From NCBI RefSeq assembly GCF_019550795.1, contig NZ_CP080545.1:5747501-5811500 (forward strand): 64,000 bases of DNA, read 5' to 3'. This DNA is from Paenibacillus sp. sptzw28. Its GTDB lineage: Bacteria; Bacillota; Bacilli; Paenibacillales; Paenibacillaceae. The notes beneath the pieces are model-generated. The model saw only the letters and a list, made by a program, of their open reading frames with translations. It searched no databases and had not been told where the DNA came from. The translations under genes and the position numbers were made by a program. Below are positions 11,023-63,703 of the stretch, piece after piece (position 1 is the first letter of the stretch; each line of letters opens with the position of its first letter).

Positions 11023-12582
11023 ATGTGGTATAACTCGTATATTCCCGAGCAGGCCCAGGGAGGCTACGCTACTTATCCACCTTCTGCAGGCGGCGATTGC
11101 GGATGCGGTGGTGCACGCGGGATGACATCGCCGGGGCAAGGAGCCGGTGGTGGTATGGGCGGAGCCGGTAGTGGTATGGGCGGACCCGGCGGTGGTATGG
11201 GCAGTGGCTTCGGTGACTTTGATGACGGATTCGGCGGACCCGGCGGTATGGGCGGAGGCTTCGGCGGGCCGGGTGGTGGCTTGGGCGGCCCTGGCGGAGG
11301 CTTCGGCGGGCCCGGTGCCGGCTTTGGCGGACCTGGCGGCATGGGCGGAGGCTTCGGCGGGCCCGGGGCCGGCTTCGGCGGACCTGGCGGCGGCTTGGGC
11401 GGCGGCTTGGGCGGCGGCTTGGGCGGCGATTTCGGCGGACCTGGTGGCGGCTTTGGCGGCCCTGGCGGTGGCATGGACGGAGGATTCGGCGGACCCGGTG
11501 CCGGATTCGGCGGGCCAGGCGGCGGCTTGGGCGGAGGATTCGGCGGGCCCGGGGCCGGATTCGGCGGACCTGGCGGCGGCATGGGCGGCGGTTTTGGCGG
11601 GCCCGGTGGCGGCTTTGGCGGACCTGGCGGCATAGGTGGAGGATTCGGCGGACCCGGTGGCGGCTTTGGCGGACCTGGCGGCATAGGTGGAGGATTCGGC
11701 GGACCCGGTGGCGGCTTTGGCGGACCTGGCGGCATAGGTGGAGGATTCGGCGGACCCGGTGGCGGCTTTGGCGGACCTGGCGGCATAGGTGGAGGATTCG
11801 GCGGACCCGGTGCCGGCTTTGGCGGACCTGGCGGCATAGGTGGAGGATTCGGCGGACCCGGTGGCGGCTTTGGCGGACCTGGCGGCATAGGTGGAGGATT
11901 CAGCGGACCCGGTGCCGGCTTTGGCGGACCTGGCGGCATAGGTGGAGGATTCGGCGGACCCGGTGCCGGCTTTGGCGGACCTGGCGGCATAGGTGGAGGA
12001 TTCGGCGGACCCGGTGCCGGCTTTGGCGGACCTGGCGGCGGCTTCGGAGGCCCCGGTGGAGGATTCGGCGCTCTCGGCGGTGGTTTCGGCGGACCCGGCG
12101 GTGGATTCCCTGGACCAGGGCCATTCCCCGGTCCCTTCCCCGGGCCATTCCCTGGTCCCGGACCCGGGCCATTCCCGAACATTGTGACCGTCTTTATCAG
12201 TGGAGGGCGCTTCTTCCCGTGGCTCACACGATCTTACAGGATACGTCATTTCCGCGGAATGACGATTTATCAGGCGCTGGCCGCAACGGGTGCCGTGCGG
12301 TTCCGTCCTAACGGTCGAATCGCGGCGGTAGACGGCGTCGTTGTCACCGGCAATATCGACGCCATCGTACGCGTCAACGGCCGTCGAATTCGTGAAACTC
12401 TTCTTTACTTGCCTGTACAAAGAGGCGATACGATCGGATTGGAGCTCGTTGTACGTGGAGCTGGAATTCCGCGTGAAGATGAAGAGTTTGAAACGGATAC
12501 GCAGCGAGCCGACGAAATAGAAAGCAACTATGAGCTTATTGAACAGAATGCAGAAGAAGTGAACGTCAATCAAGAAGGTTAA
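11023..12582 (+). CDS. Glycine-rich repeat protein with C-terminal beta-grasp-like domain
   Basis: 519 residues from ATG 11023 (AAAGGAG is 9 bases upstream; a GTG at 11017 is too close to it). The N-terminus MWYNSYIPEQAQGGYATYPP has no signal peptide and is followed by CGCGG. Residues ~40-385 are built from GFGGPGG-type units, including eight 17-residue repeats. Residues ~388-485 form a folded domain with FISGGRFFPWLTRSY, MTIYQALAATGAV and an RGDTIGLELVV end, similar in layout to DUF4430/transcobalamin-like beta-grasp domains (family assignment is inference). The tail is acidic. The composition resembles spore-coat or exosporium filament proteins, but no direct evidence supports that location. 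The antisense strand is also open because of the repeat composition and is not taken as coding. Confidence 0.8.
   Translation: MWYNSYIPEQAQGGYATYPPSAGGDCGCGGARGMTSPGQGAGGGMGGAGSGMGGPGGGMGSGFGDFDDGFGGPGGMGGGFGGPGGGLGGPGGGFGGPGAGFGGPGGMGGGFGGPGAGFGGPGGGLGGGLGGGLGGDFGGPGGGFGGPGGGMDGGFGGPGAGFGGPGGGLGGGFGGPGAGFGGPGGGMGGGFGGPGGGFGGPGGIGGGFGGPGGGFGGPGGIGGGFGGPGGGFGGPGGIGGGFGGPGGGFGGPGGIGGGFGGPGAGFGGPGGIGGGFGGPGGGFGGPGGIGGGFSGPGAGFGGPGGIGGGFGGPGAGFGGPGGIGGGFGGPGAGFGGPGGGFGGPGGGFGALGGGFGGPGGGFPGPGPFPGPFPGPFPGPGPGPFPNIVTVFISGGRFFPWLTRSYRIRHFRGMTIYQALAATGAVRFRPNGRIAAVDGVVVTGNIDAIVRVNGRRIRETLLYLPVQRGDTIGLELVVRGAGIPREDEEFETDTQRADEIESNYELIEQNAEEVNVNQEG
11629..12036 (+). repeat. Eight tandem 51-bp coding repeats
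   Basis: The marker GGCATAGGTGGA recurs at 11629, 11680, 11731, 11782, 11833, 11884, 11935 and 11986, exactly every 51 bases (17 codons). Units differ by a few bases (GGC/GCC Gly/Ala exchange), indicating expansion by slippage or recombination. Confidence 0.9.
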
Positions 12583-26646: not shown

Positions 26647-28532
26647 TCAGTGTTGGAAGAACGCGCCGATGTTCGTGCCGTCCGGCGTTCCTGAGCCGAT
26701 CAGTTCGCTTCCCTCCGCAAGCTTCAGGAAGTTCCCGAGGTTAGGGGAACCGTCCGCATTGCGGATTAATTCAGGCTTAAGGCTTATAAAGTCGGCGTCG
26801 CCGGCAGAAAGTCCCTTTGCATTAACACTTTTACTGTTTTGCCACCAGACATTTGTCTTCAGTACGTCGGTGCCGCTTATTTTATCGCTGGCGCCGCCCT
26901 TGTAAGATATGTTATTCATGAACACATGGGTGCCAACGGCGAAGTTGAAGTTACTTTGCCCGTTGCGCACAGACGTATTATTGGTGAGCTTAATCGATCC
27001 CGGGTTGCTGTTGTAAGTGAAGCCGTCTTGTTTATTCAGGTACGCAATGGAATTTATGACTATATGGTCTACGGCGATTTGACTGCCGCCCAATTTGAAC
27101 CCGTTGCCGTCGCTGTTAGCTGTCGATACGCCCGATGAAGTCTGACCGTTGTGGTGGGCAACACTGTTCTTGATCGTTACCGGTGAAATGGGTCCTGTTT
27201 CTGTTTTAGTGAACAGATCCCAGCCGTCATCGGTGTTGTAGGCTGCGATGCAGCCGTCAAACACATTACCTGGCCCAAGCGTCAGCTTCGCGGCGAAGCC
27301 GTCGGCATCCTCTCCGTTGTCCGGATCGAAGTTATCGTGAGAGTAAGTGTTTATGATTACGTTATTGCTGGGCCATTCGCTTCTCGGAGCTGTCGAACTG
27401 TATGCGCTGAGCTGCAGCCCCGAATCCCGGTTGTTATGGACGTCGACGTTATCAATCCGGTTAAAGTGGCCTGATACGAAGATACCGTTATCGGCGGCTC
27501 CTTTAATTTCGAGCCCTTTGATCGTCCAGTAGCTGCCGTCGATTCGAATCCCCCTGTCGTTACTTCCGACATTGGTGAAGCTGTAAGGCTCCGAGGAAAA
27601 ATCGAGCACAGGCTTCTCCGCTTCGAAGGGAACGATTTGTTTCCTGGCGTCCTGCGTACCGCTGTTCGACTGTATAATCCTGATTTCCGACGAATAAGAA
27701 TACGTTCCGCCGCGCATGTAGATCACTCCTCCGGGCGGGAGCTTCGCGATAGCCGAGCTTAACGTAGTCGGACTGATCAGCGTCCCGGAATTACCGTCCA
27801 ATCCATCCGGCGAAACATAGAAAACGCCGGGTGAAGCTGTATCGGAAGGAGCTGGAGCCGGTGGTTCAGTCGGGGCAGGCACCGGCCCGGGAGCGGGTTC
27901 AGTCGGCGATGTCTCATTGTAATAGCCCGTTACGTTGACATTGTCGAATTTGGCGAATGTCTTGTAAGCCACCAAGCCAACAGCTCCGGAAGTCAAGCTT
28001 GAATCATTAGCCGTTAACTGTAAGGTTCCATCTATGTACATGCTGATCGTTGTACCGTTCAATTCAAGCTTCACCGTATACCATGTGCCCTCAGCAAGCG
28101 GAAAATCCTTCGTTGACAGCGTTGTGGTTGAGCCGTCTATTTTCCTCCGAATCTCCAGTTTGCCTCCGTCGCTGTTAAATAAAGACGCCGCATAGAAATT
28201 GTTGCCGTCTTTATAACGTCCGGCTACATAAGTGCGGTTGCTGCCATTCCATTTGTCCACTTTAACTTTGGCTTCAACGGAATAATCCGTCCATGACTGG
28301 TCTCCAGCCATTGCCCGTCCCTCGTTCATACTGGATTGATAATAGACATAAGTACCACTGTCTCTCACAACAGACCAAGTACCCTTCTGAGCGGTCCAAT
28401 TGCCAGCGGTACCGTTCTCAAAATCATCACTGAAGGTTGTGGCTGCTAGAACCGGAGCAATCATTAGCATGCCGCAATCAAGACAAAGGAAAGAACAGAA
28501 GCGGCGATTTTTGCTAATTTTTTTCGACCCAT
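26647..28532 (-). CDS. Secreted pectate lyase, PL9-like, frameshifted in the signal peptide
   Basis: ATG 28532 behind GAGGAGGG starts a good signal peptide (MGRKKLAKIAASVLSFVLIA), but that frame stops at 28464. The mature protein is in another frame, continuous from before 28470 (MLMIAPVLAATTF) to 26647, so one indel between 28532 and 28466 separates them. The mature part has a laminin-G/DUF1080-like beta-sandwich (FSDDFENGTAGNW; TWYTVKLELNGTTISMYIDG), a Pro/Ala linker, then a parallel beta-helix with the PL9 layout: VSPDGLDGNSGT, GGVIYMRGGTYSYSSEI, HDNFDPDNGEDADGFAAKL, YNTDDGWDLFTK. PL9 enzymes cleave pectate or rhamnogalacturonan by beta-elimination outside the cell. It lies under a c-di-GMP-I riboswitch, terminator and five hairpin repeats. 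The frame break may be a sequencing error or real inactivation. Confidence 0.8.
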
Positions 28533-28547
28533 GAACATAACCCTCCT

Positions 28548-28742
28548 CAGGCGTTTTCGGAGAAAACGCAGCATCGTAAGCATAATCAGGCGTTTTCGGA
28601 GAAAACGCAGCATCGTAAGCATAATCAGGCGTTTTCGGAGAAAACGCAGCATCGTAAGCATAATCAGGCGTTTTCGGAGAAAACGCAGCATCGTAAGCAT
28701 AATCAGGCGTTTTCGGAGAAAACGCAGCATCGTAAGCATAAA
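28548..28742. repeat. Five tandem 39-bp repeats, each with a perfect hairpin
   Basis: Units begin at 28548, 28587, 28626, 28665 and 28704 and are nearly identical. Each holds GCGTTTTC-GGA-GAAAACGC, an 8-base stem with a 3-base loop. The array fills most of the leader between the riboswitch terminator and the pectate lyase start. A 39-base period keeps the reading frame, so the array is open on both strands, but nothing suggests that it is translated. Confidence 0.95.
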
Positions 28743-28781
28743 CCCTGTAAATCTGATATTTTCCTTCTATCATCACGACAA

Positions 28782-28815
28782 CAAAAAAGAACCCTCTATA
28801 CTGACAGGAAGGTTC
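28782..28815 (-). terminator. Riboswitch expression-platform terminator, pectate lyase leader
   Basis: On the minus strand GAACCTTC (28815-28808) pairs with GAGGGTTC (28796-28789), then TTTTTTG. It directly follows the c-di-GMP-I aptamer, as in transcription-attenuating riboswitches. Confidence 0.85.
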
Positions 28816-28828
28816 CGCTGATATCACC

Positions 28829-28918
28829 ATCCTTCGGCGGCTGGCTGGCATGCGGCTTTCGCCGCAGAAGCCCCTTTAGCTTTGCGTCACTGGCTTTCAC
28901 CAGGTTTGCCTTATCGAG
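28829..28918 (-). promoter_or_regulatory. Cyclic di-GMP-I (GEMM) riboswitch upstream of pectate lyase
   Basis: Read on the minus strand, the leader has the conserved GEMM core: AAGGCAAACC, a P2 hairpin capped by GAAA (CTGGTGAAAGCCAG), TGACGCAAAGC, then a second hairpin (TGCGGCGAAAGCCGCA) and the closing GCCAGCCAGCCGCCGAAG. These are the class I c-di-GMP aptamer signatures (RF01051). A terminator follows after 14 bases, so ligand binding should change read-through into the pectate lyase gene. Confidence 0.92.
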
Positions 28919-29018
28919 ATTGATCAAAAAATATGTAGAATCATGTCGAATCGCCTTTATTATACAGGAGGTGGGAGATATCTGTTTATGGTTCGAAGGA
29001 TTTAATTATTAAACACAG

Positions 29019-47548: not shown

Positions 47549-47690
47549 GCAACCGTTAGACGCTAGCACTGGAGCGGCTCGGTTGTCAGCAGCTGCAACC
47601 GTTAGACGCGAGTACTTAGCGGCTCGGTTGTCAGCAGCTGTGACCGTTAGACGGTAGTACTTAGCGGCTCGGTTGTCAGCAGCTGTGACC
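47549..47690. repeat. Three tandem ~45-bp direct repeats before fadD
   Basis: Units at 47549-47594, 47595-47639 and 47640-47684, plus a partial GTGACC, differ by a few bases. Each has CAACCG/CGGTTG-type inverted ends. They fill the gap between the acyl-CoA dehydrogenase stop (47704) and the fadD ribosome site. Confidence 0.9.
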
Positions 47691-47703
47691 GGGCTTCAGC
47701 TGG

Positions 47704-57324: not shown

Positions 57325-57748
57325 TCTGGGTTCTTAAACGGGAAGCAGCCGCTTATGTCATCTTGCAGATGTGAGTAGGCACGCGGAGCGCAACAAGTAT
57401 GGCAGCAACTATTGAAAGCGGCTTTCCTGCTTACAAACAGTGCCGTCTCTTTTTTCGGAGCCATAGGAAGGTTTTTCCTGTCTAAACTCGCCCGATATGC
57501 CCTTCTACGTTTCGGATATAGCTTTTAATAAGGAATATCCTGCTTACAGAGTCGTCAAACGTTCTAATTTGGCTTGATACAAGGTTTTTCCTTGTTACAA
57601 GGTTTTTCCTTGTTGACAAGTTACTGAGGCACCCGCCATTCCTCGACGAAGATATGGCAGCCGGTACCACTAGAGCATGCAAAGCTGAAAAAGCAAATGA
57701 AGAGCCGTCCACCGGACGCATTTCCATAATTAAGGAGGCTGAGAGGAG
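57325..57748. other. 424-base gap between etfB and etfA with two tandem hairpins
   Basis: etfB and etfA are usually adjacent. Here 424 bases separate them, containing two copies of ACAAGG-TTTTT-CCTTGT (57579-57595 and 57597-57613), which may act as weak terminators or RNA processing sites. No gene is seen. Confidence 0.6.
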
Positions 57749-63598: not shown

Positions 63599-63703
63599 CG
63601 TCGTATTCGGCAGCTGGCTGGCATCGCGGTATTGGTAGATCCGCATTAGCCCCTGTAGCATTGCGTCGCCACTTTTCAGTGGGTTTGCTATTGTCGTACG
63701 AGC
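63599..63703 (-). promoter_or_regulatory. Cyclic di-GMP-I (GEMM) riboswitch upstream of large SLH protein
   Basis: Read on the minus strand: ACAATAGCAAACC, P2 hairpin CCACTGAAAAGTGG capped by GAAA-like loop, CGACGCAATGC, a second arm (ATGCGG...CCGCGAT), and GCCAGCCAGCTGCCGAA. The closing stem P1 is TCGTA/TACGA. The layout is the same as at 28829-28918. The second-arm loop differs and the usual ACGCAAAGC reads ACGCAATGC. Confidence 0.9.

Follow-up and report, generated by a model that had tools for sequence, protein, structure and literature searches.

A dispersed tag-and-hairpin RNA element joined to the Shine-Dalgarno sequence in Paenibacillaceae, with a five-unit array before a pectate lyase-like gene

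Results

A five-unit hairpin array in a c-di-GMP riboswitch leader

The window analyzed here is a stretch of 64,000 nucleotides from the genome of Paenibacillus sp. sptzw28. On its minus strand, a c-di-GMP-I riboswitch aptamer and a terminator-like hairpin precede an array of five tandem hairpin units, which abuts a Shine-Dalgarno (SD) sequence. The features of the locus, in mRNA order, are as follows.

28833..28920, minus strand: c-di-GMP-I riboswitch aptamer (RF01051, 64.1 bits), upstream of the array; context, outside the element
about 28781..28817, minus strand: terminator-like hairpin with a U run behind it, lying between the aptamer and the array (read directly; paired in the leader fold)
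28547..28741, minus strand: five identical 39-nt units in tandem, each made up of tag, hairpin, and CUGA; contig G000:C1:5776047-5776241, model matches
28703..28741, minus strand: unit 1, 5'-most on the mRNA (Tandem Repeats Finder)
28664..28702, minus strand: unit 2 of the array (Tandem Repeats Finder)
28625..28663, minus strand: unit 3 of the array (Tandem Repeats Finder)
28586..28624, minus strand: unit 4 of the array (Tandem Repeats Finder)
28547..28585, minus strand: unit 5, SD-proximal; together with the SD, the top score of the array (model R2, 66.4 bits)
28574..28585, minus strand: conserved tag UUAUGCUUACGA of unit 5, carrying the G/A dinucleotide, a putative cleavage position
28551..28569, minus strand: hairpin of unit 5, GCGUUUUC-UCC-GAAAACGC; stem pairs backed by covariation between arrays
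28542..28546, minus strand: Shine-Dalgarno GGAGG, abutting unit 5 (read directly)
28536..28538, minus strand: further ATG, 3 nt past GGAGG (read directly)
28530..28532, minus strand: likely start codon ATG, 9 nt past GGAGG (read directly)
26647..28851, minus strand: open frame with a Pel9A-like beta-helix/LamG-type protein; true start expected past the SD

Tandem Repeats Finder reported the array at 28547-28741 on the minus (mRNA) strand with a period of 39, 5.0 copies, and 100% matches. The initial annotation had five tandem 39-bp units that were nearly identical; the five units stand, with coordinates shifted by one base, and they are fully identical. Written as DNA of the mRNA strand, each unit reads TTATGCTTACGATGCT-GCGTTTTC-TCC-GAAAACGC-CTGA. 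As RNA it is UUAUGCUUACGAUGCU, with stem GCGUUUUC, loop UCC, stem GAAAACGC, and tail CUGA. The perfect 8-base stem with a GGA/TCC loop (UCC on the mRNA) described earlier is present in every unit, the array does lie in the leader downstream of the riboswitch terminator, and the distance of about 16 bases given from its end to the ATG is close (ATGs at 28538-28536 and 28532-28530).

A single unit folds with -9.2 kcal/mol (z -2.76 versus dinucleotide shuffles), and a single unit with the SD has a z of only -0.63. The stability of the 406-nt leader of the array is not above that of shuffles (z -0.68), and the five identical units could pair with one another besides forming local hairpins, so local folding during transcription is an assumption.

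The protein encoded 3' of the array combines a Pel9A-like beta helix with lectin/LamG-type domains. The signal peptide of this pectate lyase-like protein (28455-28535, minus strand) is interrupted: a good N-terminal part runs into a stop, and the mature part continues in another frame. A frameshift mutation or an error in sequencing would account for this.

The array belongs to a dispersed family in the host genome

A 22-base core allowing up to three mismatches gave 30 matches in the 6.10-Mb genome, five of them in the window, versus none for the reversed-pattern control, indicating that the repeats exceed chance. The 11-base tag TATGCTTACGA gave 65 genome matches versus eight in the control. 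Covariance model R1, built from 17 units without the SD, returned at least 149 genome matches at E <= 10, some of which are the same palindrome read backwards; this count is a floor, 150 of 4115 first-look candidates having been scored. Grouping by hand at E <= 0.01 yielded 34 arrays with 102 units by tag, 19 of the arrays having more than one unit.

The elements share one plan: a conserved tag UAUGCUUACGAAG, about 2 nt, a hairpin, a short tail, and then the SD. In general form this is 5'-UUAUGCUUACGAAG-NN-[hairpin]-CUUAGGAGG-N(5-9)-AUG, where the hairpin mostly has a stem of 7-9 bp and a loop of 3-4 nt; the element is present singly or as several copies in tandem. Tag, stem pairing, and SD junction are constant across elements. 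The UCC loop, which the initial annotation had described, is not among these constants, as loops vary (UAC, UAAA, UUC, UCC, and others).

Units of the family measure 37-43 nt (37, 38, 40, 41, and 43 besides 39). Long forms also occur, with units of 47 and about 62-72 nt (L044, L045, L077, L079, and L080), for example before thrS and hslV; the long-form array at G000:C1:193215-193689 has about eight units. Unit identity is 0.886 within arrays versus 0.649 between arrays, and some arrays alternate two unit types. Tag-like hairpins are also found at L072 (G000:C1:4215740) and L076 (G000:C1:4802603) within another dispersed repeat that has shared flanks and lacks the SD junction; this is possibly a different, look-alike family.

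The element is widespread in Paenibacillaceae

Covariance model R2, which includes the SD, matched all 22 genomes of the genus, counting that of the host; at E <= 0.01 each genome had between 2 and 124 matches (150 candidates scored per genome). In Paenibacillaceae, mostly soil bacteria, R2 matched 316 of 394 genomes in 16 of 19 genera at E <= 1e-4, with per-genome counts that are floors, 16 candidates having been scored for each. A class-wide sample gave matches in 28 of 299 genomes, 25 of them in the family and three outside it with one match each (G426, G414, and G630); the match in G426 is a bona fide single unit, followed by an SD and an ORF.

A strict pattern, ATGCTTACGAAG-N14-44-CTTAGGAGG, occurred in 19 of the 394 family genomes, from three genera, and not at all in the control. 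The same pattern matched at least 120 stretches in a named collection; the 80 of these that were listed comprised 76 from Paenibacillus, three from Paenibacillaceae MAGs, and one from Bacillus sp. FJAT-28004. One congener (G011) carries an element identical to that of Paenibacillus nasutitermitis (L125).

Rfam 15 gave no match over the array at the gathering score, nor up to E = 1 across 28500-28800. At 10 other element loci it gave a single match, a ZTP riboswitch lying outside the element (L154). By sequence, the array represents one instance of a dispersed, presumably cis-acting RNA element of one family, the Paenibacillaceae.

The 3' edge of the element is joined to the Shine-Dalgarno of the downstream gene

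An SD-like motif (GGAGG, AGGAG, GAGGT, GGAGA, GGGGG, or AGGTG) is found at the 3' junction in 31 of the 34 genome arrays; those without it lie at 5678424 (before purM, with an SD about 13 nt beyond it), 4215740, and 2924921. An SD followed by a start codon and an ORF of at least 30 codons was present after 29 of the 34 arrays, versus 59 of 2040 random same-strand positions and 0 of 34 opposite edges on the other strand. The five arrays failing this rule are the three just named, 4134286, and the window array, the last because its first ORF past the SD is short, the signal peptide being split over two frames. At L052, L054, L058, and L078, the 3' edge was set from R2, which includes the SD; without these four loci the counts are 27 of 30 for the motif and 25 of 30 for the ORF.

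On the upstream side, the stop codon of a co-directional ORF lies within 20 nt before the array in 12 of 33 cases (all genome arrays but that of the window). These include the arrays before purM, rlmB, the RnpM/YlxR gene, ffh, and a ribose transporter ATPase gene (NCBIfam names; for the last, RbsA is the best match and falls below its curated cut-off). The remaining arrays are stand-alone or, as in the window, lie behind a riboswitch.

Similar junctions were seen elsewhere. We collected 130 strict-pattern elements, 10 from family genomes and 120 from the at least 120 matches in the named collection. The pattern itself demands GGAGG, and a start codon follows 3-21 nt past it in 126 of the 130 (at 5-9 nt in 116). 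An upstream co-directional ORF was found for 102, with its stop at most 20 nt from the first unit in 32 and at most 100 nt in 73. All 20 R2 matches inspected (12 from other genera, seven from congeners, and one from another family) have an SD and a start codon; they were picked from strong matches to a model that includes the SD.

Folding did not support a simple SD-opening insulator, and we rejected this role. Predicted SD accessibility at 124 of the 130 loci was 0.372 for the native sequence, 0.399 with the element removed, and 0.326 with the element shuffled. Native values exceeded those of the removed state in 55 of 124 loci (Wilcoxon p 0.055) and those of the shuffled state in 72 of 124 (p 0.008).

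Stem pairing is kept while stem sequence changes

Among 32 aligned SD-proximal units, each from a different array, the tag hardly varies and the stems differ (one row has a one-base slip outside the stem). Eight of nine stem pairs vary on both sides, the covariation score is 0.433 versus 0.139 for shuffled and at most 0.143 for slid alignments, and 82.3% of cells are paired versus 64.0% when shuffled. In other genomes, 104 distinct rows from 100 of 120 loci (L196-L215 left out), in an alignment fitted to the model, gave a covariation of 0.378 versus 0.120 for shuffled, with 91.4% paired. A model-free comparison of 105 short distinct elements found a mean stem of 7.17 bp versus 4.09 bp in arm chimeras and 1.80 bp in shuffles, and a linker of exactly 2 nt from tag to stem was the best fit in 89 of the 105. 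These data indicate that stem pairing, rather than the stem letters, is what is kept.

The GA of the tag is present in 32 of 32 terminal units of the host genome and in 20 of 20 other loci, both sets having been found by models that contain the tag. In at least one unit (L065), the tag is itself paired in the best fold, owing to its complementarity with the region of the hairpin loop; this competing fold, which is the more stable in prediction, could possibly act as a switch. In 85 of 124 folds, the AAG of the tag pairs with the CUU of the tail, bringing the stem end flush with AGGAGG. We do not regard this as a conserved helix, as the tail varies within the host genome with no matching change in the tag. 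In 20 loci from other genomes, AAGY mostly stands directly before the tag, so the GCUU of the tag could pair with an AAGC on either side, giving two mutually exclusive mini-hairpins.

The same junctions recur, and copy number changes between species

Clustering of 163 downstream proteins (126 from pattern loci and 37 from the host genome) gave 22 groups of at least two members and 82 singletons. Names were assigned by NCBIfam on one member per group. The recurrent groups are sigE (nine), atpC (seven), ruvB (six), and nusB (four), besides rpmJ, rplJ, nadK, and malate dehydrogenase (three each), pdhB and panD (two each), and others; one seven-member group we take to be sugar-transporter permeases. 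Three pairs of loci (L087/L157, L088/L177, and L090/L137) have identical elements, and each pair appears to come from one genome present in both collections, which leaves about eight distinct cases for sigE.

At the same junction, the number of copies differs between species: one to five before sigE, one to three before atpC, and two to five before nadK. The 130 pattern elements have one to eight copies (39 with one, 48 with two, and 43 with more), by a loose rule (tag with at most three mismatches) that may overcount; at the ruvB locus L152, one of three copies lies within the upstream gene. These between-species differences, together with the homogenized units, show that copy number shifts in evolution. 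The form of the unit may differ as well: hslV is preceded by long units in the host genome (L079), and a look-alike gene in another genus by a short unit (L276).

Presence at a given site is uneven. Among 22 genus genomes, only the host carries a clear array in the purF-purM gap, and we therefore rejected this gap as a conserved element site. Of the other 21 loci, two (L240 and L245) have one tag-like stretch with at most two mismatches, and at L244 a long hairpin precedes the SD; the comparison used the last 300 nt per locus, and the rule missed the purF stop in six of 22. This lone array and the range of 2 to 124 matches per genome suggest that single sites are dispensable. Two congeneric orthologs of the window gene (62% identity) lack the riboswitch as well as the element: at their loci, neither R2 (up to E = 1) nor Rfam gave a match. 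In a separate observation, the purF-purM gaps of congeners (e.g. L246, L253, and L255) carry a different long inverted repeat with ends like CGATATGG/CCATATCG, which suggests that this junction tolerates or attracts repeats.

Other identities of the array

Two of the 15 c-di-GMP-I aptamers in the genome have an element tag within 500 nt downstream. This agrees with the earlier statement that the array is not a normal part of c-di-GMP leaders, and because 13 of the 15 lack an element within that distance, we dropped riboswitch-linked regulation as the frame. The hairpin element with a likely post-transcriptional role that the initial annotation proposed holds up, and its tie to this particular leader does not, the element being dispersed before many ordinary genes. 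The window contains a second c-di-GMP-I riboswitch (63606-63699, minus strand, 64.7 bits), which no tag follows within 500 nt (L013).

Several known classes were considered and rejected. A protein-coding repeat conflicts with unit lengths of 37, 38, 40, 41, and 43 nt besides 39, and the open frame starts inside the aptamer. The units are head-to-tail, identical, and without spacers, unlike a CRISPR array, and a CsrA-type GGA loop does not apply, as the loop is UCC on the mRNA. REP/BIME sequences are dispersed intergenic palindromes, partly in arrays, a description that the 34 arrays and 102 units share. However, the REP-associated Y1 transposase (RAYT) domain PF01797 was not found in the genome by a search whose control was positive in five of 14 genomes, and orientation and SD position are fixed in the element, unlike in REP/BIME.

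Three other tandem repeats lie in the window: a 45-bp repeat at 47552-47691 (3.1 copies, 91% matches), with a sequence unlike the array; an 18-bp repeat at 57573-57620 (2.6 copies); and long G/C-rich repeats at 11226-12176 with periods of 21, 51, and 153 bp, all multiples of three, which probably encode a Gly-rich protein.

Discussion

Sequence comparison has established a dispersed family with fixed orientation, an SD junction, covarying stems, recurrence before the same genes, and changing copy number. Roles of the element in cleavage, protection, and dosage are inferred.

The reading that we favor, tentatively and as one that may well prove wrong, is that the element is a portable mRNA-processing and 5'-stabilizing module joined to the SD. 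An RNase Y-type endonuclease would cut within the tag or close to it; a G/A dinucleotide there precedes the hairpin by about 5 nt. The hairpin at the new 5' end would block a 5'-3' exonuclease of the RNase J1 type, so that the downstream gene would remain as a ribosome-ready mRNA with a short leader. In operons, the downstream gene would gain a half-life and a dosage of its own, additional copies would act as added cleavage and protection sites, and the window array would act likewise on mRNA that escapes the riboswitch terminator. Perhaps the element tunes protein output for each gene of a shared transcript.

The ingredients of this model have precedents. According to the available parts of one report, Bacillus subtilis RNase Y prefers a G/A dinucleotide within weakly structured, AU-rich RNA that has structure on its downstream side, and at cggR-gapA the hairpin mainly stabilizes the downstream cleaved product, an effect lost upon RNase J1 depletion (PMC11780869). 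Like the cggR-gapA and glnRA sites, the element has a G/A dinucleotide followed by a hairpin close to an operon junction, and by analogy the downstream gene would have its own mRNA fate (PMC11780869). In contrast, those sites are single, with a weak consensus, and the excerpts seen describe no repeat family, tandem copies, or SD fusion (PMC11780869). In Ruminiclostridium (Clostridium) cellulolyticum, intergenic, intra-operon stem-loops of selective RNA processing and stabilization set transcript ratios (PMC10311766, PMC4423207), much as proposed here, but cleavage is mostly downstream of the stem-loop, and the sections available describe neither a shared tag nor tandem arrays nor a junction with the SD (PMC4423207, PMC10311766).

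Several findings speak against the processing model. The tag is far more conserved than the RNase Y sites, which are weakly specified, with a G that was dispensable at the sites tested (PMC11780869, in the parts available). Because this specificity is so diffuse, the strict tag favors a dedicated reader and keeps such a rival alive. The element is also unevenly distributed, and its single sites seem dispensable; the identical units of the window array may pair with one another, in a leader that folds no better than shuffles; and at L065 the best fold has the tag in a paired state.

An alternative that is credible, although we think it unlikely, places the action at translation: a hairpin beside the SD would act on initiation by shielding the SD from upstream mRNA, docking on the 30S platform, or setting initiation apart from an upstream stop codon. 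Much of the geometry is consistent with this, namely the exact SD junction, the 2-nt linker that fits best in 89 of 105 short elements, the AAG/CUU pairing that makes the stem flush with AGGAGG in 85 of 124 folds, and some arrays that span from the upstream stop codon to the SD (starting at most 20 nt from it in 12 of 33 host and 32 of 102 pattern loci). However, predicted SD accessibility is not above that of the element-removed state and only slightly above that of shuffled elements, and an initiation role alone does not explain the strict tag.

Slightly less probable is that the element is the binding site of a dedicated trans-acting factor (an RNA-binding protein, a specialized endonuclease, or a small RNA) that co-regulates many genes, with tandem copies raising avidity. 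The candidate factor is hypothetical, and no obvious regulon emerges from the downstream genes, whose 20 proteins examined (one of them, of 32 aa, had no match) mix functions in housekeeping, transport, and sporulation. A strict tag beside a hairpin kept mainly in its pairing, the tandem copies, and matches in 316 of 394 family genomes would nonetheless suit such a factor.

We regard as improbable a selfish or neutral small repeat that spreads to SD-proximal sites, expands by slippage, and is merely tolerated. Compensatory stem changes, the recurrence of the same junctions in many species, the fixed direction toward the downstream gene (the SD and ORF rule held at none of 34 opposite edges), and the failure to find PF01797 in the genome (control, five of 14 genomes) argue against it, even though many dispersed copies, uneven presence, turnover, and arrays either homogenized or alternating two unit types are what such a repeat would leave. 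A phase-variable rheostat specific to this c-di-GMP-controlled gene is very improbable, for although the five identical units suggest recent expansion and copy number varies between species at other loci, only two of 15 c-di-GMP-I aptamers have an element within 500 nt, a unit length divisible by three is not a family trait (37, 38, 40, 41, and 43 nt), and two orthologs of the window gene lack the element.

As far as we searched, the nearest precedent is the TAACTGA repeats of marine Beggiatoaceae, short tandem sets a few nucleotides from the start codons of mixed genes, for which a post-transcriptional role was proposed (PMC4679880, seen in part). Those are 7-nt units without predicted structure, and canonical ribosome binding sites are reported to be rare there; the element has structured units of 37-43 nt and a strong SD. 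The c-di-GMP-I riboswitch (RF01051) shares the window leader, with the array outside the aptamer.

The element was not described among the literature matches listed, which covered open-licence PMC text and are no proof of absence; a text search with the tag and tail letters listed matches unrelated by title. Paenibacillus is not mentioned in the main text of PMC8632094 and PMC6429828, and the available part of PMC5670726, on ribosome sites, has nothing on repeats. As far as these searches go, each ingredient of the element is known, and the combined form (lineage-wide, tandem, SD-joined, and covarying) is not.

A broader proposal, speculative and to our minds unlikely to hold in full, is a family-wide post-transcriptional layer in which a tag-plus-hairpin on many SDs is served by one dedicated reader and copy number forms an inherited, slippage-prone dial for operon output ratios. 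The element offers a way to test how bacteria draw different amounts of protein from a single transcript, and the copy series before the same gene across species is a natural dose experiment. The module could also serve as a genetic part for operon tuning in Paenibacillus and Bacillus. As the copies detected number in the hundreds and Rfam 15 has no matching family, many operon junctions would carry an unrecorded common control module.
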